The notes below the pieces were generated by a model. It was not told where the DNA came from and ran no database searches. It saw only the letters and a list, made by a program, of their open reading frames with translations. 33,229 nucleotides of DNA, from positions 1 through 33,229 of IMG/VR virus record IMGVR_UViG_3300009091_000039; one strand, given 5' to 3'. Both the position numbers and the translations under genes were made by a program. The stretch comes from a virus. Positions 5,245 through 23,259 of the stretch are shown one piece after another; within the stretch, counting starts at the first letter, position 1, and each line of letters begins with the position of its first letter.

Positions 5245-5739
5245 ATGAAAAAAAACAAGAAAAAAGAAGTTGCTGTGAAACTTGCAGTGAAGGGATTCTT
5301 CAGAATTCAGATTGAAGAAGAAGGAAGAATTGTGGGTGACAGTGGATGGAATGAAAACAGGGTCACAAACACTGGGGTGGAACACTATCTGATTGACCTG
5401 ATGTTGAATCAGGCTGGGTCACTTAGGGTGTCACATCTTGCATTGGGTTCTGGAAGTGCACCAGCTGAAGCTGACACATCACTTGCTGGTGAACATGAGA
5501 AAAGAAAAGTTGCATCCACTTCAAAGATTGCTTCACACACAGCACAGTTTTATGCAACCTTTGGAAGTTCTGACAACTTTGTCACAGCAACAGCAACCCT
5601 GAACAACATTGCACTGGTTGCATATAGTTCAAAGGGTTCTGGTTCAATCATGGCTGGACAAACTTACACTTCCAGTCAGGTTCAGACAAACCAGAATGTC
5701 AATGTCAGCTATCAGATCAGGTTTGCAACAACAACTTAA
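5245..5739 (+). CDS. Uncharacterised phage virion structural protein
   Basis: 164 residues, ATG preceded by AAGAAGGGAAAGAAG. After a Lys-rich start the protein looks beta-rich, with 'VTNTGVEHYLIDLML', 'LALGSGSAPAEADTSL' and a C-terminal strand 'VNVSYQIRFATTT'. The 'IGSG-A-P-A-DT-L' motif is common in phage tail-fibre, baseplate and capsid-associated proteins, where it lies in a repeated beta module. It follows the adaptor-like gene and precedes the methyltransferase/glycosyltransferase pair, so it is probably part of the fibre block. Confidence 0.65.
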   Translation: MKKNKKKEVAVKLAVKGFFRIQIEEEGRIVGDSGWNENRVTNTGVEHYLIDLMLNQAGSLRVSHLALGSGSAPAEADTSLAGEHEKRKVASTSKIASHTAQFYATFGSSDNFVTATATLNNIALVAYSSKGSGSIMAGQTYTSSQVQTNQNVNVSYQIRFATTT

Positions 5740-5773: not shown

Positions 5774-6427
5774 ATGAAATCAGTTGCTGAATCAAAAAAT
5801 GGAATCCTTCTTGACCTTGGTTGTGGTGCGAACAAGCAAGGTGAAAACTGGGTGGGTCTTGACAGAAGAAAACTTCAGGGTGTTGACCATGTTCATGACT
5901 TGGAAGTTTTTCCCTATCCAATAGAATCAGATTCCTGTCTGACAATAGTTGCATCACATGTTGCTGAACATATCAGACCAACATCAATTGATGCAAGAAT
6001 CATTGGACTGTTCAACTTGCTGGTTCAGAAGGGAATCATCACAGCTGAAGAAATCTTCAGGTTCTGTGGTGAAGTCAATGATGAACCAGTCTTCATCAGG
6101 TTCATGAATGAATGCTGGAGAATGCTGAAGGATGGTGGAAGGTTTGCAATAGGTGTTCCATATGGGAGAAGTGATGGAATGCTTCAAGACCCCACACACA
6201 TCAACTTCATCAATGAAGCTACATGGCAGTATTTTTCACCTGAACATGGTCTGTTCTACATTTACAGACCCCTTCCATGGAAAATCATTCAGAACACTTG
6301 GATGCAAACTGGAAACATGGAAGTGCTTCTGGAAAAGGTCACAACATTCAAAGACCTGATGACAAACACAACCATTGAAGGTGTCACATTCAAAAAACAC
6401 TATCAACTTCAAGAAGGAACAGTCTGA
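5774..6427 (+). CDS. SAM-dependent class I methyltransferase
   Basis: 217 residues, ATG with AAAGGAAC upstream. Motif I is LLDLGCGANKQGENWVGLD (about residues 12-30), and the acidic residue ending the second strand is present (LD). 'VVHDLE'-like VDHVHDLEVFPYPI follows, then 'VASHVAEHI', the usual motif IV region of small-molecule or sugar methyltransferases. No DNA-methylase catalytic motif (NPPY, DPPY, PC) is visible, so I do not call it a DNA methylase. The stop overlaps the start of the glycosyltransferase gene (TGATG), suggesting that the two work together, perhaps modifying a virion or cell-surface glycan. Confidence 0.85.
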   Translation: MKSVAESKNGILLDLGCGANKQGENWVGLDRRKLQGVDHVHDLEVFPYPIESDSCLTIVASHVAEHIRPTSIDARIIGLFNLLVQKGIITAEEIFRFCGEVNDEPVFIRFMNECWRMLKDGGRFAIGVPYGRSDGMLQDPTHINFINEATWQYFSPEHGLFYIYRPLPWKIIQNTWMQTGNMEVLLEKVTTFKDLMTNTTIEGVTFKKHYQLQEGTV

Positions 6428-7263
6428 TGAAAAAAGAAATAAAAATGAACAAGAAGACAAGGGAAGCACTTGTCAACAAAAACATCCAGTCAAAAGAAAA
6501 AGCAATGAACAGAATTCTGGTGGGAATCCCCAGCACTGGTCTTGTCAGAATTGAATGGGTGCTTGCAAGATATAATCAAATCATTCCCACAAACTGGTCA
6601 CATGCTGAAACACTTCAGATGTATGATTCAAATTCCCCAGTGGGGTTCAGTGTTGCTGATGCAAGAAACATCATTGCAAACAAAGCTGTGGTTGAAGACT
6701 GGGAATGGCTGGTCTTCATTGATCATGATGTCAAACTTCCAGCAACATTCTTTGTCTGGATGAATGAAATCATTTTGCATGAAAAAATCCCTTGCTGGTC
6801 TGGACTATATTTCACAAAGTCAGTTCCAGCTGAACCTTTGATCTACAAAGGAAGGGGAAACGGATATTTCACAAACTTCAAACTGGGTGAAAGGGTCTGG
6901 TGTGATGGTCTTCCTATGGGTTGCACTGTCATCAATGTCAAGCTTCTGAAAGCAATGTATGAAGAAGAACCTTCTTATAATGTTCAGGGACTGACACTGA
7001 AAAAAATATTTGAAACACCGAACAATCTTTTTGTTGACCCACAGACATTGAACTGGTTTGTGTCAACTGGGACTGAAGACCTGAACTGGTGTTCAAGGGT
7101 CATCAAGAACAGGATTTTCGACAAAGCTGGTTTTCCAGAATATCAGGAAAAGCTTCATCCCTTCATGATTGACACAACTATGTTCTGTTATCATCTGGAC
7201 ACAAATGGAAGACACTTTCCATCAAAGGGTGAAGAAGCAAGGTTCATGAAAAAAAGGAAATAA
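6427..7263 (+). CDS. Glycosyltransferase, GT-A fold (family 2-like)
   Basis: 278 residues. ATG 6427 overlaps the methyltransferase stop and has AGAAGGAAC upstream; ATG 6445 and 6508 are weaker alternatives. The core starts with 'RILVGIPSTGLVRIEWVLA'. 'VADARNIIANKAV' and 'WEWLVFIDHDVKLP' follow; DHD is in the place of the metal-binding DxD of GT-A enzymes. Later 'GLPMGCTVINVKLL' and 'STGTEDLNWC' fit an acceptor/catalytic region. Such enzymes occur beside methyltransferases in many environmental phages; the sugar and acceptor are not predictable from sequence. Confidence 0.8.
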   Translation: MKKEIKMNKKTREALVNKNIQSKEKAMNRILVGIPSTGLVRIEWVLARYNQIIPTNWSHAETLQMYDSNSPVGFSVADARNIIANKAVVEDWEWLVFIDHDVKLPATFFVWMNEIILHEKIPCWSGLYFTKSVPAEPLIYKGRGNGYFTNFKLGERVWCDGLPMGCTVINVKLLKAMYEEEPSYNVQGLTLKKIFETPNNLFVDPQTLNWFVSTGTEDLNWCSRVIKNRIFDKAGFPEYQEKLHPFMIDTTMFCYHLDTNGRHFPSKGEEARFMKKRK

Positions 7264-7269
7264 AAATTC

Positions 7270-9945
7270 ATGTCAATTACTTTTGGGGTTGCATCAGTCA
7301 CAACAACACTGGGTGGTGCTGGAAGAACAGGCAATGGTGACCTGACCATCCCACTTCCCAGTGGATGGTCGGCTGGTCAGTTTGCAATCCTGATTGTTTT
7401 TAATGACCAAGGAACAGCATCAACACCCACAAACTGGACTTCACTTTCTGGAAGTCCCTTTGGTGGTGATGTCTGGAAACTTTATGTCTTCCACAAATTC
7501 CTTCAGACTGGTGAATCTGACCCAGTGACAACCATTGCTGGGTCGGGGACTGGTATTTCACATGTTGGTGGAATCATGACCTTCAATGGTGTTGACACAA
7601 GCAATCCTGTGGAAGTTGTTGGGACACCCACAGATGGAAGTGGGACACCCATGACAGCAGGTGCAATCACAACACTGACACCACTTGCATGGGTTCTGGG
7701 TCTTTGTGGAAGGGGTGACAATGAATCTTCTTCAAATCAATCTTTTGGTGGGTCAACAACTGATGTCACAGAAAGACTTGACAGTGGAACAAATGCTGGG
7801 GATGATTCACAAGTCAGTGCTTATTCAAAAGAAATCACTTCACCAGCTTCAACAGGTGCTGGTTCAGCCGACACTTCAGCAACAGACCCATGGACTTCTG
7901 TTCTAATTGCAATCAGGAATGCTGTTGCTGGTCTTCTGGTCAGTTCACTGACAGTTGCTGATGTTGTCACCATTCAGCTTGTTGGTGATCTTTCAATCAA
8001 TGTTTCTGATGGTGTGAATATTTCTGATGTAGTCACCACCCAGCTTGAAGGTGATCTTTCAATCAATGTCAATGACATTCTCAAAATTTATGATGTCCCC
8101 ACTATTGAAGCTGAAGTTGGTGATTATGCTGTTGATGTTTTTGATGCACTTAATGTTTCAGATGTCACTACAGCTGAACTGACTGGTGATCTGGGGACTT
8201 CTGTTGCTGACACAATCAATATATCTGATGCTGTTGTCATCCAGCTTGAAGGTGATCTGGTTGCTGATGTCTTTGACAGGCTGAACCTGTCTGATGTTGT
8301 CACAATACAACCTGAAGGTGATCTGGGAACTTCTGTTGCTGATGCACTGAATGTGTCTGATGTTGTCACAATCCAGCTGACAGGTGATTTGTCTGTGAAT
8401 GTCAGTGACATTCTTTCAGTTGCTGACAGTCCAACTGTTCAGGTTGAAATTGAAGGGGAACTGAACATCAGTGTTCTTGATTATGTTTTCATCATTGGTT
8501 TTGATGACAGTGGTTCTGAATTGTTTGTCCCAGCTGGGTCAACTGGTTTTCAGGTTGTGGGTGGTGGTCTTTTTTATGTTCGGGACAACAACCCAGCAGG
8601 GTCTGGAACTTCTGAAGTTTTTGTCACCCTTGAAAGCATTATTGATCTTGCTGATCTGATTCAGGTTTCTGAAAGTGCTTCAGTTGAAATCACTTCATTC
8701 CCTGATTTGAACATTTCAGTTATTGAACAACTGGACATCACAGATTCACCCACTGTTCAGGTGCTGGGTGACAATGAAGCTTCTGTTGCTGATCTGTTGA
8801 ATGTGTCTGATGTTGTTGTTGTTCAGCTGGAAGGTGATTTGATTTCCAATGTTTTTGACAAACTGAATGTGTCTGACATTGTTGTTGTTCAGTTAGAAGG
8901 TGATCTGGTCATTGATGTTTTTGACAAACTGAATGTGTCTGAAGACTTTCAGGGTCAATCAATTGGGGATGGTGAAGTTTCTGTTTCTTCACAGCTGACA
9001 ATTGCTGATGTTGTTACAATCCAGCTGACAGGTGATCTGGAACTTTCTGTCTTTGATGTTCTGGGTGCATCTGATGTTGCTTCAGCTGATCTGTCTTCCC
9101 TTCCTGATCTGATTATTTCAGTTAGTGAACAGCTGAACACTATTGATTCACCCACAATCCAGCTGACAGGTGATCTGGAAGCTTCAGTTGCTTCTGTTCT
9201 TTCACTGATTGATTCTGTGACCATTTTGATGACTGGGGACATACAAATTGACACCCCAGACCTTTTGACCATCACAGACGTGGTTTCCTTGCTTCTGGAA
9301 GGTGATTTGACACTGTCTGTTGCTGACACAGTTGCAATTTCTGATGTTCCAACTATTTCACCAGAAGGGATTGTCAATCCATTTTCTGTTGATGACAGAC
9401 TGACCCTTCAGGATGTTGTTTTTGTCCAGCTGGTGGGTGATCTTCAGCTGTCTGTGTCATCCAGCATCACAGCTGGTGATGATGCAAGCATTCAGGTTCT
9501 GGAAGCTTCAGCACTTTCAATCATTGTCAGTGACCAGCTGACAATTCAGGATGTTGTCACAACACAGCTTGAAGGTGATCTGGTCATTGATGTAAATGAC
9601 AGACTGGACATTTCTGAACAGATTGAAATAAGTTCAGCACTTGAAATTTCTATTGCTGAACAGTTGACAATCATTGAAGACATCACAGTCCAGCTGGAAG
9701 GTGATCTGGTCATTGATGTGTCTGACCAGCTGACAGTTGGTGATGAAGTCCTGACAGCATTCAGTGGTGATTTTTATGTTGATGTGTTTGATGAAATTTT
9801 CATCACAGACTATCCAGCAACACCAACACCAGAAGAAAGAATTTTTTATGTCTTCAGGGAAACAGATTTCATCATCATTGGTGATGGGTGGGAAGCACAC
9901 AGGGTTTTGGAAATTAAAAATGAAGGAAGGAATTTCAATGCTTAA
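7270..9945 (+). CDS. Giant repeat fibre protein (about 25 x 22-residue repeats)
   Basis: 891 residues. Residues 1-212 form a beta-sandwich-like head module with 'PLPSGWSAGQFAILIVF', 'PTNWTSLSG' and a later 'WTSVLIAIRNA', a layout seen at the start of phage fibre and adhesin proteins. From about residue 223 to 850 the protein is a tandem array whose unit reads roughly 'V-D-LNISDVVTIQLEGDL'. It is interrupted once (about residues 405-470) by an unrelated segment 'SELFVPAGSTGFQVVGGG'. The last 35 residues are different and may be a tip or trimerisation region. Cys is nearly absent and Asp abundant. An elongated beta-solenoid or fibrous trimer is likely, but no homologue with known function is recognisable. 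No SD of standard strength lies before ATG 7270, which is 6 bases after the glycosyltransferase stop. Confidence 0.8.
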   Translation: MSITFGVASVTTTLGGAGRTGNGDLTIPLPSGWSAGQFAILIVFNDQGTASTPTNWTSLSGSPFGGDVWKLYVFHKFLQTGESDPVTTIAGSGTGISHVGGIMTFNGVDTSNPVEVVGTPTDGSGTPMTAGAITTLTPLAWVLGLCGRGDNESSSNQSFGGSTTDVTERLDSGTNAGDDSQVSAYSKEITSPASTGAGSADTSATDPWTSVLIAIRNAVAGLLVSSLTVADVVTIQLVGDLSINVSDGVNISDVVTTQLEGDLSINVNDILKIYDVPTIEAEVGDYAVDVFDALNVSDVTTAELTGDLGTSVADTINISDAVVIQLEGDLVADVFDRLNLSDVVTIQPEGDLGTSVADALNVSDVVTIQLTGDLSVNVSDILSVADSPTVQVEIEGELNISVLDYVFIIGFDDSGSELFVPAGSTGFQVVGGGLFYVRDNNPAGSGTSEVFVTLESIIDLADLIQVSESASVEITSFPDLNISVIEQLDITDSPTVQVLGDNEASVADLLNVSDVVVVQLEGDLISNVFDKLNVSDIVVVQLEGDLVIDVFDKLNVSEDFQGQSIGDGEVSVSSQLTIADVVTIQLTGDLELSVFDVLGASDVASADLSSLPDLIISVSEQLNTIDSPTIQLTGDLEASVASVLSLIDSVTILMTGDIQIDTPDLLTITDVVSLLLEGDLTLSVADTVAISDVPTISPEGIVNPFSVDDRLTLQDVVFVQLVGDLQLSVSSSITAGDDASIQVLEASALSIIVSDQLTIQDVVTTQLEGDLVIDVNDRLDISEQIEISSALEISIAEQLTIIEDITVQLEGDLVIDVSDQLTVGDEVLTAFSGDFYVDVFDEIFITDYPATPTPEERIFYVFRETDFIIIGDGWEAHRVLEIKNEGRNFNA
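7936..9815 (+). repeat. Tandem 66-bp (22-residue) coding repeats in the fibre gene
   Basis: About 25 units, each ending close to QLEGDL or QLTGDL. Unit spacing is 22 residues with rare 20-24 residue variants. Repeats are diverged at DNA level, so this is an old array rather than a recent expansion, although neighbouring units around 8800-8940 (FDKLNVSD... twice, FDKLNVSE once) are very alike and may be recent duplicates. Confidence 0.85.
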
Positions 9946-11278
9946 AAAAATAATTTATGTCATTTTGCTGTCAGCTGTTTCTGTGTTTGCACAGTTCACT
10001 TCTGTTCACACAGGGGAACATGTTGATTCAAGTGTCACAGCATATGACTTTGCAATTCTTCAGCTTGAAGGTCAGACCATTGATGGTTCTGTGACAGCTG
10101 GGGAAGTTTGTGAACTTACTTCTTCAGGATGGAATGAAGCTGATGCTTCAGCTGAATCAACAGCTGATGGTGTTCTGGGAATCTATTTGGGTTCAAATCA
10201 GGTTCTTCTTTCTGGAATATACACAACAACAGGACTGACAGCTGGAAGTTTGTATTGGTTGAGTGAAACAGAAGGACAATGGACATCAACCATGCCGACA
10301 GCAACAGGGACAATTGTGAAGTTCATTGGTCAGGCAATTTCAACAACAAAGCTTGTGGTCTTTCAAAATATTTGGCTGGAAAGGGGTTCAGGTGGTGGTG
10401 AAGATACTTTGCACTACACAACAGTCCCATTGGTGATAGGGTTGCAGGACACCATTGATGCTTTACAGTCAGACATTGAAAACATCCTGAATATAGGTGA
10501 TGTCAGAGTTCCCTTCATGTGGGCTTATTTACAACTGGACACCACTGGTTCAGTGGTAAGCATTGACAGTGTCAAGGATGGTGCTGTTTCAACCTTGTTC
10601 ACATCAGACACCTTTGATGTCAGCACAAATGATGTTGTCTGGGTTCATGTTGATTCAGGAAAATACAAAGTCAAATATAAGTTTGAAAGTGAAACAGCAA
10701 CTTGGATTGCCAACTGGCAAACAAACGCAAACTATTACAAGGGAGTTGATTCAGCTGTGGTTCAGTTTTACACAGGTGCATCCAATTCAACAGCTTATGA
10801 ACAGGTGTTTTATGTCAGCAATGATGCTGACACATTCTTGGTGACCACAGTTGCTTCTGGTGGTGACACACTTGGTGCAGAACTGATCACCAATGGCGAC
10901 ATGGAATCCAACAGTGAATGGGTCACATATTTGGCTGGGACAAACTATCAAAGTTCAACAGCACCACATGGTGGGACATACAGCTGGTATGTCAGTGCGG
11001 TTTCAGGTGCTGGAATTTACAACAGTGCTGTCACACTGGAAAATGGTGAAACATATTATATTGATTTTTGGGTCAAGGTTGTGACAGTTGGTGGGAATGC
11101 AAAATGCAATTTCATTTCAGCTGAAATAGTCAATGAAGACTACACAGATGGAAGCTGGGTTCATGTCATTGCTTCTTTTGTTTCAGATGTGACAAGTTCA
11201 TCTATTTACTTTCTGTCAAATGGTGGTGCTTATGAATTTTATATTGATGATGTTTCACTTAAAAAGAAATTAAACTGA
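9938..11278 (+). CDS. Secreted-type fibre/adhesin-like protein with C-terminal carbohydrate-binding-like module
   Basis: 446 residues. The true start is ATG 9938 (AAGGAAGG upstream, 8-base overlap with the previous gene), not in-frame ATGs further upstream, because it creates a complete Sec signal peptide: MLKKIIYVILLSAVSVFAQ, cleavage expected before Gln. The next region (about residues 20-150: 'VTAGEVCELTSSGWNEADASA', 'GVLGIYLGS', 'GLTAGSLYWLSETEGQWTS') matches a small beta domain common in phage capsid/tail proteins. Residues about 320-446 begin 'LGAELITNGDMESNSEW' and end 'YEFYIDDVSLKKK', the framing of CBM4/9-like jelly-roll sugar-binding modules. It probably binds a surface glycan. Why a virion protein should be exported is unclear. 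Confidence 0.75.
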   Translation: MLKKIIYVILLSAVSVFAQFTSVHTGEHVDSSVTAYDFAILQLEGQTIDGSVTAGEVCELTSSGWNEADASAESTADGVLGIYLGSNQVLLSGIYTTTGLTAGSLYWLSETEGQWTSTMPTATGTIVKFIGQAISTTKLVVFQNIWLERGSGGGEDTLHYTTVPLVIGLQDTIDALQSDIENILNIGDVRVPFMWAYLQLDTTGSVVSIDSVKDGAVSTLFTSDTFDVSTNDVVWVHVDSGKYKVKYKFESETATWIANWQTNANYYKGVDSAVVQFYTGASNSTAYEQVFYVSNDADTFLVTTVASGGDTLGAELITNGDMESNSEWVTYLAGTNYQSSTAPHGGTYSWYVSAVSGAGIYNSAVTLENGETYYIDFWVKVVTVGGNAKCNFISAEIVNEDYTDGSWVHVIASFVSDVTSSSIYFLSNGGAYEFYIDDVSLKKKLN

Positions 11279-11279
11279 C

Positions 11280-13214
11280 ATGAAAAATTTTTTGACAAGC
11301 TTGCTTTTTATTATTTCTGTTAATGCACAGAACGTGTGGTATGTTTCACCAAGTGGGAACAATTCAGATGGTTCAACTTGGGAAAATGCTTGGACTAATT
11401 TAGATCAGTTCACTTGGGAAACTGACATCAGTGCTGGGGACACCATTTATGTTGATGCTGGTGATTATGCTGGGGTTGAACTGGTCAGTGGGTTGAATCC
11501 ACAAGAACTGAATAACGGACTAAGAATATATTTCAGCACACAGGTTGTTGTGACAAGGTCTTATGAGGCAGGGCACACAGGAACAGTCAGGTTCATAAAA
11601 GATCAGGCTGAAGAAAGAGCATTCAGAGCATATGGAATTGCAAATGTGAAGTTCAATGGTTTCACGTTTTCAAATATTGCTGATGTATATACTGACAATG
11701 GCAATTATTCAAATTGCACCATTGGATATGACAGTCTGATTGTGATGGATAGTTGCAGGTTTGTGACAATTGGAAATCCTTCAGCAGTGTTGAACGTGGG
11801 ATATTCAGAGAAAGTCACAGTTCAAAATAGTATTATTGAAACCATGCCGAACACTTATGCAAGGGCTTATGACATCATCACCTTTGGAACAGGAAGGGGT
11901 GGAATAACTTTCAAGAACAACAGCATTATTCAGAGAAGTGCTTATTCTGGGACTTCTGGGACTTCCAATGGTGCTGTCACATTTACAGACACATCACTGA
12001 CTGACACAAGGTTGACTGGTGGTAGTGCATTAGTCCCAAACTATCACAAGCATGGAACAATAACAGTTGGGGATTCTTCCTATTTATTTGTTGACAGCAA
12101 TTCAACCAACACATTTTATGGGGTGGAATGGACTGGTGGTGGGAAACCAGCAGATGGTTCAGCATGGTATGTCAACACAGCACAGCACAGGGACTTTATT
12201 CAGTGGAGTGAGTTTTTGAACACTGACCCTGAATTCAATCTGATAGTGTTTGATAAAAATTTCATGCTGGTGTTGACCCCTGAAGCACATGCTTATAACA
12301 TGTTATTTTACAGTGTCAGTGCATTTCCCCAGTATGGAAGGATGGTTTTCACAAACAACATTCTGGTGGTTGAAACAGCAGGAATCACACCCCTTGAAAA
12401 TTGTGGTGGTCAATATGCAATTCAGAACTATACTGATGTGACAAATGGAACTGGAAGTGGTGTGACAACAGACAACACTTCCCTGACAGACACAGACCTT
12501 GACATGGAAACTGATGTCTTCATAGGTTGCAGGCTGACCTGTGCTGGTGAAACCCTGACTGTGACAAGCAATGACAATGACACATTTTTTGGCACAGAAG
12601 GATGGAGTGGGGAAACACCACCCAGTGGTTCACCTTGGTCACTTGCAACAATTCATGCAAATCATCTGAACTGGACTGTGATAAACAACACTTTCATCAC
12701 CCCAAATGGTGGACTAAGTATTGACCCCTTTGATTCAATGATAGTTAAAAACAATTTTTTCATAGGTGGTTGTGCTACTGATCAGGCGGTGATGGGAATG
12801 GGTTACAGCAACACACACTTTGACACTTCTTTCAAAGATGTTGACTACAATCACTATTGGTTTCCAAGCTGGAACAGCAATGTCAGACAGTTCAGAATCT
12901 ATGGTGGGACTTCCAGAAATTGGGGTGACTGGAAAGCTGAAGGTGTGGATGTGAATTCAGACACTGGACACATAAGTCTTGCAGATGTAAGGGATTCAGT
13001 GATTGCTTCATACATGCCGACAGAACAAATTGCAGGGACTGATGTTTCCCAGTATGGTGTCACCACTGACATCCTTGGCAATGAAAGAACTGTCTGGACT
13101 ATTGGTGCACTGGAATTTCAAAGTGGAACAGGAACTGGAACATTCAAAATTTTGGGTGTGAATGTTTCAAAGGTTTTGGGGATTTCCCCTTCAAAGATTT
13201 TTGGAATTCAATGA
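11280..13214 (+). CDS. Right-handed beta-helix (pectate-lyase-like) spike protein with signal peptide
   Basis: 644 residues. Signal peptide MKNFLTSLLFIISVNAQ, then 'NVWYVSPSGNNSDGSTWENA', the standard opening of secreted parallel beta-helix proteins. Repeated 'FKNNSII', 'VIDSC-F', 'VNNTFI'-type rungs follow. Two related inserts of about 75 residues break the helix (11976-12206 and 12462-12674). The C-terminus carries three short repeats KILGV, KVLGI and KIFGI, each preceded or followed by a Ser, a tail motif also seen on other phage proteins. Such helices often bind or cut polysaccharides, but I cannot identify catalytic residues. Word usage differs from neighbours: GAG triplets, nearly absent elsewhere, occur about eight times, suggesting more recent acquisition. 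The start is 1 base after the preceding stop. Confidence 0.75.
   Translation: MKNFLTSLLFIISVNAQNVWYVSPSGNNSDGSTWENAWTNLDQFTWETDISAGDTIYVDAGDYAGVELVSGLNPQELNNGLRIYFSTQVVVTRSYEAGHTGTVRFIKDQAEERAFRAYGIANVKFNGFTFSNIADVYTDNGNYSNCTIGYDSLIVMDSCRFVTIGNPSAVLNVGYSEKVTVQNSIIETMPNTYARAYDIITFGTGRGGITFKNNSIIQRSAYSGTSGTSNGAVTFTDTSLTDTRLTGGSALVPNYHKHGTITVGDSSYLFVDSNSTNTFYGVEWTGGGKPADGSAWYVNTAQHRDFIQWSEFLNTDPEFNLIVFDKNFMLVLTPEAHAYNMLFYSVSAFPQYGRMVFTNNILVVETAGITPLENCGGQYAIQNYTDVTNGTGSGVTTDNTSLTDTDLDMETDVFIGCRLTCAGETLTVTSNDNDTFFGTEGWSGETPPSGSPWSLATIHANHLNWTVINNTFITPNGGLSIDPFDSMIVKNNFFIGGCATDQAVMGMGYSNTHFDTSFKDVDYNHYWFPSWNSNVRQFRIYGGTSRNWGDWKAEGVDVNSDTGHISLADVRDSVIASYMPTEQIAGTDVSQYGVTTDILGNERTVWTIGALEFQSGTGTGTFKILGVNVSKVLGISPSKIFGIQ
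11976..12206 (+). repeat. Intragenic duplicated insert, copy A
   Basis: Encodes about 77 residues beginning VTFTDTSLTDTRL and containing 'NTFYGVEWTGGGKPADGSAW'. It matches copy B at 12462-12674 in the motifs TSLTDT-L, N-TF-G and WTGG-P--GS-W. The region is probably a small beta-barrel inserted into a beta-helix loop. Confidence 0.65.
12462..12674 (+). repeat. Intragenic duplicated insert, copy B
   Basis: Encodes about 71 residues beginning VTTDNTSLTDTDL and containing 'DTFFGTEGWSGETPPSGSPW'. Homologous by eye to copy A; DNA identity is modest, so the duplication is not recent. Confidence 0.65.
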
Positions 13215-15737: not shown

Positions 15738-16241
15738 ATGGCTGAAAGAAGGGTGATCTGGTTTGGCAAACATGTTTATAAGACCATGAAGGATGCAAAT
15801 GAAAAAGCACTTCTGGTCATGGGTGCATATGGTGCTGGTGTGTGTAAACAACTTGCACCTGTTGACACTGGACTTCTGAAATCTTCCATCACCTATGCAA
15901 CAGCACTGGAACTTGGAAGACCAACACAGGAAGGAAGGGTCACAGCAAAAGACAAGCACATGATTTCACAACCCTCTGAACATTACAGGCTGAAAATTGG
16001 AACAGCTGTGGACTATGCACCCCATGTTGAGTATGGAACAAAAGCACACTTCCCACCAGTGAAGTCACTTGTGGGGTGGGCGAAAAGGGTGCTGGGGAAT
16101 CCCAGACTTGCTTTTGTTGTTGCAAGGGCAATCAGCAAGAAGGGAACAAAAAGACAAAGCTTCTTAAGACTTGGTGTTCTTTCACACAGGAAGGAACTGG
16201 GTCAGATATATTCCAAAGCAATGAAGGGACTATTAAAATAA
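15738..16241 (+). CDS. HK97 gp10-like tail/neck protein
   Basis: 167 residues. ATG 15738 is 2 bases after the previous stop; no strong ribosome binding site, so coupling is likely. 'LAPVDTGLLKSSI' and 'YAPHVEYGTKAHFPPV' are the defining signatures of the HK97 gp10 family, which acts in head-tail joining or tail completion. The C-terminus is basic. The last base of its TAA is the first base of the next ATG. Confidence 0.85.
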   Translation: MAERRVIWFGKHVYKTMKDANEKALLVMGAYGAGVCKQLAPVDTGLLKSSITYATALELGRPTQEGRVTAKDKHMISQPSEHYRLKIGTAVDYAPHVEYGTKAHFPPVKSLVGWAKRVLGNPRLAFVVARAISKKGTKRQSFLRLGVLSHRKELGQIYSKAMKGLLK

Positions 16242-16687
16242 TGGATGAAGAAATCAGAAAAGAAATTGAAAGAATTCTTCTGGGGACATCAGGAAGGACT
16301 GATGCATGGTTGTTCTATACAAAAGCACCTTTTGATGCACCCATTCCATTCTGTGTCTTTGAAGTGATTGCATCTGAAGGAACAAAGGACACCAAAGATT
16401 CATATGTCACTTTTTTTCTTCAGTTCAGTGTCTATGACAACAGTGTCAATCCCACTGAAGCTGAAAGGTTTGCAAATGAAATTGCTTCAAGGATGGATGA
16501 ATCAGAAAAACTGTTCAGACTTACAAACTGGAAGCTGATCAGTGTTGATGAAGTCAGACCAGCAAGGACAACACCTGATGAAGATTTTTTGCAGGTTTCT
16601 TTTGACATCAGGATGAAGCTTGAAAGAATAAAAATCACAATTGATGTCAGTGACACACTGAACATCAATGAATCAATTCAAACATAA
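16241..16687 (+). CDS. Tail completion protein (gp17/DUF3168-like) with fibre-repeat C-terminal tail
   Basis: 148 residues. I place the start at ATG 16241 (TAATG junction with gp10-like gene); in-frame codons further upstream lie inside that gene. The fold pattern 'APFDAPIPFCVFEVIA', 'YVTFFLQFSVYDNS' and 'DFLQVSFDIRMKLE' fits the gp17/DUF3168 tail completion family that caps the tail tube where it meets the head. After the family's usual end the protein carries about 17 further residues, ITIDVSDTLNINESIQT, which match the 22-residue repeat unit of the giant fibre gene at 7270-9945. Confidence 0.8.
   Translation: MDEEIRKEIERILLGTSGRTDAWLFYTKAPFDAPIPFCVFEVIASEGTKDTKDSYVTFFLQFSVYDNSVNPTEAERFANEIASRMDESEKLFRLTNWKLISVDEVRPARTTPDEDFLQVSFDIRMKLERIKITIDVSDTLNINESIQT
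16634..16684 (+). repeat. Fibre-type repeat unit at the C-terminus of the tail completion protein
   Basis: Encodes ITIDVSDTLNINESIQT. Compare fibre units such as INVSDGVNISDVVTT and VIDVNDRLDISEQIEI. The match is at protein level; DNA is not closely similar. Confidence 0.7.
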
Positions 16688-16704
16688 AAGGAAGGAAATA
16701 AAAC

Positions 16705-17097
16705 ATGGCAAAATCAGAATTTGCAAGGGGAACACTTTACTGGGGTGGAACAACAACCAGCAATGTGAAGGGAATTGTTGACATCACCCTTGATGAAAAC
16801 ATTTCTGAAATTGATGTCACTGACACTGAAACAACACTGGGTGAATCAGAATTCCTTGGTGGAAGAAACACAAGGGGAATCAGTTTCAACTTGTTCAAGG
16901 ATGTTGAAGATGCTGATTTGACAATGAAGACAGCAACAACATTCCAGCTGGTTGCAGAAGATGCTGGTGGAAAGAAAGCAACCTATGCTGGAACAGCACT
17001 TCTTCTGACAAAGTCAATCACAGGAACAATTGATGATGCTGTGAAAGTTGCATACACTGGAAGAATCAATGGTGCACTGGTAGAAACCAACACTTAA
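16705..17097 (+). CDS. Major tail (tail tube) protein
   Basis: 130 residues; ATG with AAAAGGAAGGAAA upstream. Beta-rich with 'ISEIDVTDTETTLGESEFLGG', a likely tube-forming core, and 'ATTFQLVAEDAGGKKATYAGTA' near the C-terminal half. Size, composition and position between tail completion and tail chaperone genes are those of siphophage tail tube proteins, which polymerise around the tape measure. Strong ribosome binding site suggests high expression. Confidence 0.8.
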   Translation: MAKSEFARGTLYWGGTTTSNVKGIVDITLDENISEIDVTDTETTLGESEFLGGRNTRGISFNLFKDVEDADLTMKTATTFQLVAEDAGGKKATYAGTALLLTKSITGTIDDAVKVAYTGRINGALVETNT

Positions 17098-17133
17098 AAA
17101 GTAATTTCTTAAACTTAACAAAGGAACAACAAG

Positions 17134-17526
17134 GTGAGAAGAAAAAGTTTTTTATTCAAAATAGGTGGGAAGGAACTGGTCTTCTTTGAACGAAACAGGG
17201 AAGACCTTGACCTTCTTTCCATCACTGAAAAATACAGGGCAAAAGAATTCAGGTTTGTTCAGGAAAACACAACAGACCCAGATGACAGGGGAATGTTGCT
17301 GGTCAAAATTCTTGACAGGAAATATTCACCTGAAGAACTTTCCTTGTTTATATATAACAGCATGGAAGGAATCAGGGAAGTTCTGTGGGATTCATTCAAG
17401 CTGGGTGATCAGAAAATAAAACGTGAAGAATTCTTTCAGCTGATTGAAGGTCAGGAAAGAAACATCAGGGACATGCTGATCAAACTTGAAGACCTGAAGG
17501 ACTTAAAAAAAAAGACACCAGTGTGA
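17134..17526 (+). CDS. Tail assembly chaperone, short form (gpG-like)
   Basis: 130 residues, GTG start with AAAGGAAC 8 bases upstream. Soluble, charged and mostly helical, ending in a Lys-rich stretch 'LEDLKDLKKKTPV'. The first of the two tail chaperone frames usual between the tail tube and tape measure genes. It is read through a run of nine A residues just before its stop, where a -1 shift would extend it into the next frame. Confidence 0.75.
   Translation: MRRKSFLFKIGGKELVFFERNREDLDLLSITEKYRAKEFRFVQENTTDPDDRGMLLVKILDRKYSPEELSLFIYNSMEGIREVLWDSFKLGDQKIKREEFFQLIEGQERNIRDMLIKLEDLKDLKKKTPV
17505..17514 (+). other. Programmed -1 frameshift site (A AAA AAG)
   Basis: In the gpG-like frame the codons are TTA AAA AAA AAG ACA; A-AAA-AAA (17505-17511) and A-AAA-AAG (17508-17514) are both standard slippery heptamers. 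The -1 frame is open from 17490 through the site to the TGA at 17757-17759. Slippage at A-AAA-AAG would give a fusion of 127 plus 81 residues, matching the gpG/gpGT arrangement of siphophage tail chaperones. Confidence 0.85.
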
Positions 17527-17759
17527 CTGAACTGTCAACAGAATTTGCTGACGCACTGATGCTGAAAGTTTATGGTCTGTCAAGGGAAGAACTTGGAAAG
17601 CTGACACAAAGACACTTCAGTGAACTTCTGGAAAACATTGGTGGTGTGATTGTGTTTGAACAGACAGGAAAAATTGTTGACAGGAAAGCAGAAATTGAAA
17701 AAGACAGGAAGAACATCTTGTGGACAAAGAAACATAAAAAGGAAATGATTCATGGCTGA
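17523..17759 (+). CDS. Tail assembly chaperone extension (gpT-like), read by -1 frameshift
   Basis: The frame from GTG 17523 encodes 78 residues, but no ribosome binding site precedes that codon, so it is more likely made as a fusion with the preceding frame. The residues 'SREELGKLTQRHFSELLENIGGVIVF' are helical and the end is basic (WTKKHKKEMIHG). In lambda-like phages the fused form recruits tail tube subunits to the tape measure. Its stop overlaps the tape measure start by 8 bases. Confidence 0.75.
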   Translation: MTELSTEFADALMLKVYGLSREELGKLTQRHFSELLENIGGVIVFEQTGKIVDRKAEIEKDRKNILWTKKHKKEMIHG

Positions 17760-20220
17760 AAAACTTGCTGAACTTTATGTGGACATTGAAGGAAGACTGA
17801 CAAAGCTGGAATCAGCACTTGCAACTTCTGAAAAGAAAGTCAAGACTTCAGCTGACAAGATTCAAGGAATCTATTCAAAGCTGGGAAGGAACATGGGTGC
17901 AATCTTTGGTGGTCTTGCAATTGCAGGTGCAATGAAGAAAGCTTTTGATGGTCTGGTCAGTCTGGACAAGGGCATGAGGCAGGTCAACACCATTGCAAGA
18001 CTTTCAGAAAAAGACCTTGCTTCACTTACAGCACAGGTCACAGAACTGTCTTCCAGACTGGGTGTGGGGACTGGTGATCTGACTTGGTCACTATATCAGA
18101 CCCTGTCAGCTGGAATCAAAGCTGGTGATGCAATGAAGTTTCTGGAAACAGCAACAAAAGCTGGGATTGCTGGAATCACATCAACTGAAAGTGCTGTCAT
18201 GGCACTGACAAATGTGATCAATGCATGGGGACTGTCAACAGAAGATGCAACAGAAATCAGTGATGTGATGTTCAGGACAATTGACCTTGGTCAGACAACC
18301 TTTGAAGAACTGTCAGCATCACTTTCACAGGTGTCATCACTTGCTTCAGCTTCAGGAATTTCTTATCAGGAAATATTTGCATCCATTGCAACCCTGACAA
18401 AAATGGGTGCACCCACAGCTGAAGCATTCACCAGAATCAATTCAGCAATCTTTGCAATGAATGAAATCTTTGGTGATGGATGGTCAAAGACAATGACACT
18501 TCAGGAAGCAATGGTGAAGCTTGCAAAATCCACAAACTATTCTTCAGTGGAACTTCAGAAGCTTATGGGAAGGAAGGAAGGTGTTCTTGCTGTTCTTTCT
18601 ATTGCTTCAGAGAATGGGAAGCTTGCAAGTCAAGACCTTGACAAGATCACACATTCAACTGGGATGCTGAACAAAGCTTTTGAAGAAATGGAAAAATCCT
18701 ATTCTGTCATTCTTGAAAAGCTGAAAGTCACAGTTGAAAACAAGCTGGTCAACACACTGGGAAGGGCAGTTGAAAATGTTGGAAAGCTGGTTGATGCTTT
18801 CAACAACCTTCCACCATGGGTTCAGACGCTGATGAAGGTGGGTGGTGCACCCTTTGAAATGGGGAAGGGAAGTGTTGTCACAAAAACACCACAAAACCAA
18901 AAATTCACAGAACAACGTGATCTGGGAATTGTCCAGTGGGGAACTTTTAGTGAAATAGTAACAACAGCACTTCAGGAAACCACTTCTGGTCTGAAGTCAT
19001 CAAGAACTGAACTTGAAGGTCTGATCAATAAGACCAAAGAAGAAGGTGATGCTGTCACCAAAATGACAGATGGTTTTGACTTAAGCAAGATGTCAATTGA
19101 AGAACTGGAAAGGAAAGCAACTGAACTTGAAACAGCAATGAAGTCAATGACACCAACTGTTGCAAAAAGTTCAGATGAATTCAAACAACTGAACCAGATC
19201 ACAAAAATGCTGGACTTGAAAAAAAGTTTTGAAGATGCACAGAAGTCAGCCGAAAAGATGACAGAATACATCAAGGGAATCACTGATGGATATGAAGAAA
19301 CACTGAAGAAGGTCAAAGCAATTGATGAATCAATTGCATCTTCAGCTGGGAACACACAAGCAATTCTTCTTTATGAAATTGAACGTGGGAAGGTGATGTC
19401 TGAACTGGTCAGAAGTTCTGAAGCATATCTGGAATCATTGAAGAAGATCAATGAAGAATCAGCAAAAAGGGGTGGGCTGACACAGTCAGAAATTGACAAC
19501 CAAAGGGTTGAAGAAATTCCTGAAGAAACAATTGCTGAAAGAATAAAAAGGGAAGCAAAGGGTGGTGAACTTGGTATCAAGGAAGTTCCAGAAAAAGATG
19601 ATGATGAAATCAGAAGGAAGACAGAAGAAGAACAGAAGGATGCTGATGAAAGACACCAGAATTCACTTGAACAAAATGCTGATGTCATGCAGATCATGCT
19701 GGGACAAGCACAGATGATTTCAGGTGCACTTTCACTTGGTGCACACACCTTTGTCAGTCAGCTTGCTTCAGCACTGTCACTTGCTGACCAAATTGCACAA
19801 TCAATCCTGTCAATCATTTCAATCTTCACACCCACTGGTGGGTTTGGTGTTGGTGGACTGATTTCAACTTTGTTCGGGAAAAAAGGTGGAACTTTTCAGG
19901 GTGGAAAGAAGATTGCTTCTTTTGCTTCTGGTGGTGATTTCATTGTCCCACCATTTCACACACAGGACAATTTCCCCATGTATGTTTCCAGTGGTGAAAG
20001 GGTCAGGGTCACACCACAGAATAAAGTCAGTGAAGAAGTTCAAGCAATGAAAAACATAGGGACAAGAATTGAAGCAATGAATCAGAACCTTGTGAACATG
20101 AATTCAAAACCACAGGTGGTCAAAGTTCCACTTGTCATCAAAGGAAGACAGCTGGGTGAAGCTGTTCTTGAAATCACAAACGACATGACAAGAAACAAAA
20201 TCAATGCTGGGGAATTCTGA
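17752..20220 (+). CDS. Tape measure protein
   Basis: 822 residues, ATG preceded by AAAAAGGAAATGATTC. The N-terminal region has a coiled coil followed by a hydrophobic patch 'NMGAIFGGLAIAGAM'. Residues about 65-330 match the TP901-type tape measure core ('GMRQVNTIARLSEKDLASLT', 'ATKAGIAGITSTESAVMALT', 'FEELSASLSQVSSLASASGI'). The centre is helical and Lys/Glu-rich. Near the C-terminus are a hydrophobic segment 'SILSIISIFTPTGGFGVGGL' and 'FASGGDFIVPPF' typical of tape measure ends. At about 0.15 nm per residue it predicts a tail of roughly 120 nm. Confidence 0.9.
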   Translation: MAEKLAELYVDIEGRLTKLESALATSEKKVKTSADKIQGIYSKLGRNMGAIFGGLAIAGAMKKAFDGLVSLDKGMRQVNTIARLSEKDLASLTAQVTELSSRLGVGTGDLTWSLYQTLSAGIKAGDAMKFLETATKAGIAGITSTESAVMALTNVINAWGLSTEDATEISDVMFRTIDLGQTTFEELSASLSQVSSLASASGISYQEIFASIATLTKMGAPTAEAFTRINSAIFAMNEIFGDGWSKTMTLQEAMVKLAKSTNYSSVELQKLMGRKEGVLAVLSIASENGKLASQDLDKITHSTGMLNKAFEEMEKSYSVILEKLKVTVENKLVNTLGRAVENVGKLVDAFNNLPPWVQTLMKVGGAPFEMGKGSVVTKTPQNQKFTEQRDLGIVQWGTFSEIVTTALQETTSGLKSSRTELEGLINKTKEEGDAVTKMTDGFDLSKMSIEELERKATELETAMKSMTPTVAKSSDEFKQLNQITKMLDLKKSFEDAQKSAEKMTEYIKGITDGYEETLKKVKAIDESIASSAGNTQAILLYEIERGKVMSELVRSSEAYLESLKKINEESAKRGGLTQSEIDNQRVEEIPEETIAERIKREAKGGELGIKEVPEKDDDEIRRKTEEEQKDADERHQNSLEQNADVMQIMLGQAQMISGALSLGAHTFVSQLASALSLADQIAQSILSIISIFTPTGGFGVGGLISTLFGKKGGTFQGGKKIASFASGGDFIVPPFHTQDNFPMYVSSGERVRVTPQNKVSEEVQAMKNIGTRIEAMNQNLVNMNSKPQVVKVPLVIKGRQLGEAVLEITNDMTRNKINAGEF

Positions 20221-21410
20221 TGTCATCACCAAGGTTTGAACACAACAACAGCACAACAATCAACAACTACATCAGAAGCTGTGATGATGTTCCCCTGTTC
20301 TGTGAAAAGAACAGGGATGGAACACTGGTCATTGGTGAATTTGAAATGGAAGTCAGTCAGAACTATTCAACAACACTTTCTGTGGGTCACTTCATTGATG
20401 CTTATTCTGATTCATCATCTGGAACACCTTTCTTCATGGGTGAAATCACAGAAGTCAAACCAAGTGATGATGGTGAAGTTTATTTTGTCACAGTGAAAAG
20501 CATTCTGGTTCAGCTGACCAGATTGACCCTTTCATATAGTGAACTACACACACAACTTCAGCAAACAACAAACGCAAATGAATGGATTGCTTCAGACAAT
20601 TTTTCACTTCCAAATGCACAGGTCTTGTGGATTATTAAATGCATGATGGTGGTTGCTTTTCCAACTTATCCATATTCAACTTTTCTTGTTTCAACTGAAC
20701 TTGAAGAAACAATTTTGAAAAGTTTTGACTATGAAGAAACATTCAGGGAATTCAGGGTCAAGCATCTGGTTTTGGATGAAAATATGTTATATGCAATTAA
20801 TCAGAACTATGCACTGAACACAACTGGGATTGATGCTGACTTGGAAAAGAAAAAACTTAGAATCACATTCTTTGATTTCATTTCTGAATTCTGTTCACAT
20901 GTGAATGCAAACATCAGACTGTCAAACCAGACAAAGGGTTTCCTGATCTTGTCACTTCAGGGGACACAGTCGGTTGTTTTAGGTGATTCATACATTCTTG
21001 AAAAAAGGGTGGACAAGATTGTGGGTGAAGCTGGTGGATATTCAGCAAACTTGAAATTCAATTCCACAAGAACCACTTACAATTCATCAACACCAACAGC
21101 ACTGACAGATCATGAACTGACAAGTGGTGATGTCAGGAACACCATTCCTGTCTTCAACAATACTGTTTATATGTTGAGGAAATATTTTGGGGATGCTGGT
21201 GATGTTCTGGGGACAACTTATCCAGATTATGTTTTTGATGCTGAACTTTTTCTTCAGGAAAAGATTGACAGTGTTGTTTCAGGTTTTACAAAGACAGTCA
21301 TCAGGTTCAATGCAATTGCAACTGGAAATGCAATTCAGTCAAACACAAAGTCTTCCTTCATGGACATGGGAAGGGAAGAAATCATCTATACTTATGAAAT
21401 AAAGGACTGA
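20220..21410 (+). CDS. Tail tip/baseplate protein (hub-like, uncertain)
   Basis: 396 residues; ATG 20220 overlaps the tape measure stop (TGATG) with GGGGAA upstream. Sequence is mixed beta with early strands 'TLVIGEFEMEVSQNYSTTLS' and 'FFMGEITEVKPSDDGEVYFV', resembling the barrel region of hub or distal tail proteins. Several short Asn/Thr-rich loops follow. Position directly after the tape measure is where the distal tail and tail-associated hub proteins are encoded in siphophages. I do not see a peptidase or lysozyme motif. Confidence 0.65.
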   Translation: MSSPRFEHNNSTTINNYIRSCDDVPLFCEKNRDGTLVIGEFEMEVSQNYSTTLSVGHFIDAYSDSSSGTPFFMGEITEVKPSDDGEVYFVTVKSILVQLTRLTLSYSELHTQLQQTTNANEWIASDNFSLPNAQVLWIIKCMMVVAFPTYPYSTFLVSTELEETILKSFDYEETFREFRVKHLVLDENMLYAINQNYALNTTGIDADLEKKKLRITFFDFISEFCSHVNANIRLSNQTKGFLILSLQGTQSVVLGDSYILEKRVDKIVGEAGGYSANLKFNSTRTTYNSSTPTALTDHELTSGDVRNTIPVFNNTVYMLRKYFGDAGDVLGTTYPDYVFDAELFLQEKIDSVVSGFTKTVIRFNAIATGNAIQSNTKSSFMDMGREEIIYTYEIKD

Positions 21411-21414
21411 CACA

Positions 21415-22008
21415 ATGATTTTTGGGACATCTTATCCGAAACTGAAGCTGGGAACAACAATCTATGAACTGGGGAAAAGTCTGGTTGACCCTTCTTTTGC
21501 TGAACCAAACTTGATTGAACACAAAAGCATCATGAATGCTTTCAAGTCATGGAGAATCAAAGGAAGTGGTGATCATGCTTCCTTCAGAATCACAATGAAT
21601 CTTTTCAAGTATGAATCACCAAGGGCAAAATTAGAAGAATTGATTGTCTTGAACCATCAATATGTGAAGTTGATGCTTCATCAGGATTCGGGTTTGTGGT
21701 TTCAGGATGTTGATGGAAGTGATGCTGACTTTTTCATTTCACTGATGCTTCCATTTTATCTTCAGGTGTCACCACCAAACTATCAAGACAGACTTTTGAT
21801 TGAACTTCAAAGTCAGAAAGCACTGAACCTGACTGGTTCACTTTATGGATATTTGGTGGATGCACAGGGTGACTTTCTTGTTGATGGTTCTGGGAAAAAG
21901 CTGAAGGTCTTCAAGGGGTTTTCAGCTGGTGATCAGGCAATGGTTGAAGCTTGGAACATCAGTGTCAATGACAAAATCAATATTTCAGAAAATGTGACAA
22001 CTTCATAA
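21415..22008 (+). CDS. Tail tip protein with fibre-repeat C-terminal tail
   Basis: 197 residues; ATG with AAAGGACTGACACA upstream. Beta-rich ('IKGSGDHASFRITMNLFKYE', 'LLIELQSQKALNLTGSLYGY'). It probably forms part of the baseplate along with the preceding protein, judged by position only. After 'LVDGSGKKLKVFKGFSAGDQ' it ends WNISVNDKINISENVTTS, which matches the repeat unit of the giant fibre and the tail of the gp17-like protein. The family is otherwise unrecognised. Confidence 0.7.
   Translation: MIFGTSYPKLKLGTTIYELGKSLVDPSFAEPNLIEHKSIMNAFKSWRIKGSGDHASFRITMNLFKYESPRAKLEELIVLNHQYVKLMLHQDSGLWFQDVDGSDADFFISLMLPFYLQVSPPNYQDRLLIELQSQKALNLTGSLYGYLVDAQGDFLVDGSGKKLKVFKGFSAGDQAMVEAWNISVNDKINISENVTTS
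21952..22005 (+). repeat. Fibre-type repeat unit at the C-terminus of the tail tip protein
   Basis: Encodes WNISVNDKINISENVTTS. Shares 'I-V-D-(L/I)NIxE' with the fibre repeats and with the tail at 16634-16684. Confidence 0.7.
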
Positions 22009-22029: not shown

Positions 22030-23259
22030 ATGAAAAAAATTCTTTTAATCTTTTTGATTGTGACAGCATCAACCATCTTTGCACAGGACTTCACAATCAG
22101 AAGCTTGACCACAAGATCAGGAATCACAGGAACAGACCTGTTCATCACTTCACAGTCAGCTGTTGATGCTTACTGGAAAATGTCAATCACTGAACTTCTG
22201 GGATTTGTTGATGACCAGACTTTCACATGGACTGGTGCTCATGTCTTCAGTGGTGCGGTTTCACTTAATGGGGTGACCACAATGGGTGCATCATCACACT
22301 TTGTTTTTGCTGGAAATGGTTCAGCACTTTATGCAAGGGAACTGACAGCATATGACCAATATCTGAAATATACTGGAACAGTAAGAACAGACACACTTGT
22401 GTCATGGAATCAGTTCTATTTGCAACCAAGGACACTTTATGCAACATCAACTTTTGCTGGGAATGTTGTGACAAATGCTTCAGCTTCATCAACATTCAAT
22501 GGAACTGTCATACTTGGAAATACAACCATCACAACATCAACAATGACCTTTGGTGGTGCTGTCACTTTTGGTGGGTCTGGTTCATTAAGACTTGGAACAA
22601 ACACTGGAACACTTGGTGGAAGTCTGTTCAGATATGACCTTGCAACAGACCTTCTTGCATACAGGAAAGATGATGGTGGTGGGATTGACACAATCCCTTC
22701 ATATGCTTATTTGCGACAGACCTATGCTTTGAAAAATAATTCCATATTTTCTGGACTTGCAACATTCACTTCATGCACTGATCTGATTCTTCCAAATAAT
22801 GCAACAGGGAACAATCAGGGAAGCATACATCAGAAGGGGAATGAAGGTTCTGGTTTTCTTGTCTTCAACTATGGAACATCAGGAACATCAAAAGACACAA
22901 TGGTTTCAAAAAGGGAATTCAGGTCTGGGAATCATGATTTTTATGGTCAGGTTGATTTCAAGTCACAAGCTGTTTCACTTGTGGGTGGGTTGCAAACTAT
23001 TGCACCAACAAAAAACTTCATTGTGATTTCTGGGAATGCTTCACCAGCTGTCATTCAAAACTTCACAGGTGCACAGGAAGGTTGCAGGCTGACAATTCTA
23101 TGCAACCCAGCAGGGTCATATGGGTTCACCATCAATGATGATGATGTGAACATTCAGCTGAATGGTGACACAAACCTTGCAATGGGACTTGGTGATGTTG
23201 TTGAACTTATTCAGTTTGGTTCAGTCTGGTTTCAGATTGCACCAAGGTCAGACAACTAA
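22030..23259 (+). CDS. Tail fibre protein with signal peptide
   Basis: 409 residues; ATG with AAGGTGA upstream. Begins with a Sec signal peptide MKKILLIFLIVTASTIFAQ. Next come 'LFITSQSAVDAYWKMSITELL' and 'TFTWTGAHVFSGAVSLNG', then Thr/Gly/Asn-rich repeats ('TFNGTVILGNTTITTSTMTF') typical of extended phage fibre shafts. The C-terminal 120 residues ('NFIVISGNASPAVIQNFTGA', 'VVELIQFGSVWFQIAP') look like a compact beta-structured fibre head. Last gene of the late block, followed by a strong terminator. Confidence 0.75.
   Translation: MKKILLIFLIVTASTIFAQDFTIRSLTTRSGITGTDLFITSQSAVDAYWKMSITELLGFVDDQTFTWTGAHVFSGAVSLNGVTTMGASSHFVFAGNGSALYARELTAYDQYLKYTGTVRTDTLVSWNQFYLQPRTLYATSTFAGNVVTNASASSTFNGTVILGNTTITTSTMTFGGAVTFGGSGSLRLGTNTGTLGGSLFRYDLATDLLAYRKDDGGGIDTIPSYAYLRQTYALKNNSIFSGLATFTSCTDLILPNNATGNNQGSIHQKGNEGSGFLVFNYGTSGTSKDTMVSKREFRSGNHDFYGQVDFKSQAVSLVGGLQTIAPTKNFIVISGNASPAVIQNFTGAQEGCRLTILCNPAGSYGFTINDDDVNIQLNGDTNLAMGLGDVVELIQFGSVWFQIAPRSDN

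Follow-up and report, generated by a model that had tools for sequence, protein, structure and literature searches.

The stretch of DNA analysed here (the window) spans 33,229 nucleotides of a virus, IMG/VR record IMGVR_UViG_3300009091_000039, and the fibre gene, the three genes preceding it and the genes of the two tailed proteins described below lie on the plus strand. A large fibre of 891 aa is encoded at positions 7270–9945. About 22–24 copies of a short repeat unit fill its residues 220–850; a period of 22 residues is dominant, and 13 of the unit-to-unit spacings measure exactly 22. In an AlphaFold2 model made from a 24-row alignment each unit is predicted, at low confidence (pLDDT 58.8, pTM 0.52), to form one long strand, and a fold search of the PDB with this model gave no match at E≤0.001.

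Three genes precede the fibre. They encode a conserved protein, called here P164 (5245–5739), a methyltransferase-like protein (5774–6427; PHROG 6636 methyltransferase, E=8.9e-5) and, directly upstream of the fibre, a putative glycosyltransferase of GT-A-like type (6427–7263). The last assignment is weak but consistent: the protein is conserved in 21 scanned proteins, one homologue matches Pfam Anp1 (E=6.2e-6), and the profile matches the viral protein A197 (2c0n) in the PDB (E=0.0079). Apparent signal peptides, unusual for virion proteins, are found at the start of three large proteins of the structural region, encoded at 9942–11278 (MLKKIIYVILLSAVSVFAQ), 11280–13214 (MKNFLTSLLFIISVNAQ) and 22030–23259 (MKKILLIFLIVTASTIFAQ).

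Two further proteins end with one copy of a sequence resembling the fibre unit. The first is a tail-terminator-like (gp17-like) protein of 148 aa (16241–16687), which carries ITIDVSDTLNINESIQT at residues 132–148 (16634–16684). The second is a putative tail tip protein of 197 aa (21415–22008), in which WNISVNDKINISENVTTS occupies residues 180–197 (21952–22005).

Single repeat units on two tail proteins

The likeness of the two tails to the fibre was measured with a position-specific scoring matrix (PSSM) built from 21 fibre units of the window. WNISVNDKINISENVTTS scores 22.1 bits and ITIDVSDTLNINESIQT 21.1 bits; the next-best non-fibre protein of the window reaches 8.9 bits. In 200 shuffled proteomes the top score was 16.3, and the highest second-best score 12.0. 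A scan anchored at the C-terminus, to which 23 phage loci contributed 885 proteins, places the putative tip protein (29.4 bits) and the terminator-like protein (28.6 bits) first and second, the null maximum among 26,550 shuffles being 16.0. Third, at 14.1 bits, is the homologue of the tip protein in the nearest relative of the phage (G001; 39.8 kb, major capsid protein 67% identical). This homologue ends with YVDITDTLDVS, resembling half a unit, and has been left out of the count of tails, as these residues may be its own last strand. Chance or convergent likeness of a natural β-strand end, conceivable for that homologue, is hardly credible for the tails of the window and has been rejected on both scores, as both outscore every shuffle by far, and the homologues of the terminator stop before the tail. 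Judged by sequence, both tails are genuine single copies of the fibre repeat unit, as the earlier note had proposed.

The terminator-like protein matches the tail terminator families PHROG 176 and 123 over about residues 22–129, the PHROG 176 match (E=2.5e-6) covering residues 25–127. Its gene is located between a neighbour matching HK97-gp10_like (15738–16241) and the next tail genes, as expected of a terminator. Comparison of homologues with and without the tail, recommended in the earlier note, returned two homologues, in G001 and in the contig L110. Both are devoid of the unit and stop where the tail of the window protein starts; the tail thus directly abuts the terminator domain.

No Pfam or PHROG family matched the putative tip protein, and its identity is therefore deduced from gene order and from one homologue, found in G001, which is 27% identical and 60 residues shorter. 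A structure model of the protein reached a pLDDT of 30.6. The repeat unit is here preceded by an extra stretch (LVDAQGDFLVDGSGKKL...), missing from this only homologue. A second possible add-on, YGYLVDAQGDFLVDGSGKKL (21845–21915), lies between the tip domain and the repeat unit, and is similarly missing in the G001 homologue. The earlier description of each unit as directly following its own domain is hence correct for the terminator-like protein, not for the tip protein. Likewise, the placement of the two proteins at opposite ends of the tail stands for the former, which is assigned to the tail terminators by PHROG; the place of the tip protein is positional only.

Repeats and short tails in uncultured phages

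Repeats conforming to about SISVSDSVTVSENVTV, with a period of 20–24 residues, have been identified in about 25 contigs of uncultured phages. Whole or near-whole contigs were fetched, and each predicted protein was scanned for units; genes outside the window were predicted simply as the longest ORFs, and the sample includes several fragments. The threshold adopted, 14 bits, was passed by none of 746 shuffled proteins, and by no protein of eight array-free relatives. Arrays of at least 6 units were found in 24 contigs, some of them near-identical to one another. A broad repeat pattern, scanned alone, retrieved 21 loci, and a scan of IMG/VR with P164 retrieved five further phages, all five endowed with an array of related units. 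The narrow LNIS pattern matched G001 only, and no relatives were retrieved by scans with the terminator or tip protein alone, or with patterns falling on GDL linkers. The virus recurs, since in one 7.6-kb contig (L009) derived from a different sample both the capsid protein and P164 are 100% identical to those of the window.

The repeat family has no model in Pfam or PHROGs at the sensitivity used, and no credible relative in the PDB; sequence matches to designed toroids (dTor) were judged spurious, because no single stretch was significant. Literature searched with general terms yielded no description of the repeat. Among 50,697 named phages neither the repeat, nor P164, nor the glycosyltransferase found a match at the thresholds used, with the proviso that the BLAST low-complexity filter may hide some matches to the repeat. 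As these searches were empty, the feature would be known only from metagenomes.

Short tails similar to those of the window mark other proteins in other phages. L145, a 10.6-kb contig from a phage unrelated to that of the window, encodes a tail tube protein (PF18906, E=1.6e-7) closed by a single unit (TIDVSDTVTIAEDIDVSIPE) and a DUF2460 tail protein (E=1.2e-18) closed by three. It also encodes another DUF2460 protein, in which a lectin-like region comes after four units. Contig G024 provides a 230-aa protein with two units at its very end. The five clear tails, including the two in the window, have a similar design, the protein ending 4–8 residues past the conserved acidic residue of the unit, unlike complete long arrays, which continue for at least 22 further residues. 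Short tails are uncommon, being found in 3 of about 25 contigs. Since they recur in other phages on other proteins, the shared-tail pattern is real and independent of the phage in the window; the add-on noticed earlier on two tail proteins proves to be general, and extends to tube, DUF2460 and 230-aa proteins elsewhere.

Some candidates were not counted. An 84-aa protein of G001 ending with GDSLGIQESVSVQIK scores only 4.0 and 2.7 bits, the unit of a 245-aa protein in G026 runs off the contig end, and single internal units in a 130-aa protein of G029 and G031 were judged to be due to chance.

Other terminal sequences have been noted as well. The protein encoded at 11280–13214 ends with another short repeat, FKILGVNVSKVLGISPSKIFGIQ (13140–13211), which differs from the fibre-unit tag. 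A further C-terminal motif (VTPGIQQIQGVRIV, VTPGIQQVANVVVS, LTPGLKIIG) is common to repeat-bearing proteins of three phages, encoded at 5355–6890 in L173, 11538–12878 in L175 and 8446–9555 in L197.

Nature and possible role of the tails

Because other phages place the same repeat on different tail proteins, a portable module seems a better description of it than a dock for one fibre. The reading that we favour, with a probability of roughly 0.6, is that the tails are single copies of a widespread, promiscuous short surface module, not a fibre-specific lock. Phages would deploy the module mainly as a long fibre array; one to three copies would at times become fused to the C-terminus of other virion proteins, such as terminator-like, putative tip, tail tube and DUF2460 proteins, the module being presumably spread by recombination. 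Fused units may project outward from the tail and supply its surface with additional copies of the fibre's surface chemistry, possibly providing weak adhesion, or acceptor sites for glycosylation by the phage itself. They could in this way act as the C-terminal Ig-like and FN3 domains of other phage tails do.

Ig-like (Big_1, Big_2) or FN3 domains are located at the C-terminus of tail tube proteins as lambda gpV, T5 pb6, the YSD1 tube protein and SPP1 gp17.1*, and in several such phages the domain juts out from the tail and is wholly or partly dispensable (PMC8718954). The fibre unit is likewise a small C-terminal module that turns up on various virion proteins from one phage to another, being fused to the terminator-like, putative tip, PF18906 tube and DUF2460 proteins. 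The differences are marked. Ig-like and FN3 domains are globular β-sandwiches of ~90 residues described by Pfam models; the fibre unit measures 17–20 residues and has no Pfam match, and no Ig-like or FN3 model of Pfam matched the tails, the fibre or the arrays. Unlike those domains, the unit also builds the fibre array. In SPP1 fusion is achieved by ribosomal frameshift, whereas the tails of the window are fused in frame. By analogy, the repeat module is most likely a functional counterpart of the Ig-like and FN3 add-ons that lies outside their family.

The BACON domain is distinct from the fibre unit, and larger. Tandem BACON repeats in crAss-like phages are likewise reported to be small β modules arranged in tandem in a phage tail-associated protein (PMC6949934). 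Similar tandem units, of the form V-x-V-x-E-x-I-x-L-x-D, are found in a large protein from the Acidobacteria phylum (L213), which, unlike the phage fibre, is a cellular protein; in a sample of 297 genomes, all from the bacterial phylum to which Chloracidobacterium belongs, only 1 had repeats of this type (E≤1e-6).

A more specific role is suggested by the genes upstream of the fibre. Of the contigs retrieved with the repeat alone, 18 in all, 16 contain P164, 15 the GT-like gene and 14 the methyltransferase-like gene; the two contigs missing all three are fragments of 10–13 kb. None of these genes, nor any array, was found in 88 control loci (890 kb). The linkage of the cassette to arrays spans unrelated uncultured phages; because of it, glycosylation of the repeat by phage-encoded enzymes has to be taken seriously as an alternative function. 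The units would be acceptors for glycosylation by the fibre-adjacent glycosyltransferase and methyltransferase, and a lone unit would tag its protein for glycosylation; the proposal is a narrower version of the surface-module reading. The array found in all five contigs recruited by P164 agrees with it, as do the location of the two-unit protein of G024, encoded immediately upstream of the cassette, and the abundance of serine and threonine in the units (~26% of residues). The basis, however, is gene linkage, the assignment of the glycosyltransferase is weak, the acceptor could instead be P164 or some other protein, and in the window serine and threonine make up 18% of the array, less than the 23% found in the remainder of the fibre. 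We regard the acceptor role as tentative. A fuller version, in which P164, methyltransferase, glycosyltransferase and array fibre make up a four-gene cassette, and the repeat is a glycan acceptor used also as a one-unit tag that would coat the whole tail, neck to tip, with sugar, is somewhat more doubtful.

The tails may alternatively be functionless and neutral, left behind when repeat-bearing genes recombined. Their uncommon and patchy distribution would fit such an origin, as would the tailless terminator of the nearest relative. Yet one compact genome keeps two tails, in which core residues are conserved and divergence is comparable to that of functional fibre units, and a similar truncation point is shared by unrelated phages. 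We consider this explanation improbable.

The earlier note proposed that the tails could serve as a dock for the fibre, or else as a virion-incorporation tag; in the docking version, the fibre would attach at either end of the tail by adding a strand or a hairpin. Fibre and tails do carry the same unit, and the long strand predicted for each unit in the low-confidence model could add at an edge. The tails of the window, however, resemble units of other phages as much as, or more than, units of their own fibre. DNA comparison gives the same picture: identity of the tails to the closest fibre unit is 67% and 56%, that of a fibre unit to its closest fellow 67% on average, and recent copying of the tails from the fibre within the genome was on these grounds rejected. 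G001 carries the fibre, yet its terminator has no tail; a tailed partner is missing from most phages with an array; and in L145, the fragment that encodes the tailed tube and DUF2460 proteins, no separate fibre accompanies them. Docking specific to the phage's own fibre is possible, although nothing favours it; the claim is left unsupported by these comparisons, and we hold it to be quite improbable.

Read as a portable surface module, the tails point to a family of short repeats, mobile among tail proteins in uncultured phages and absent from the family libraries that were searched. The tie between the repeat and the upstream cassette provides a direct, testable lead on the decoration or glycosylation of tails by phages.
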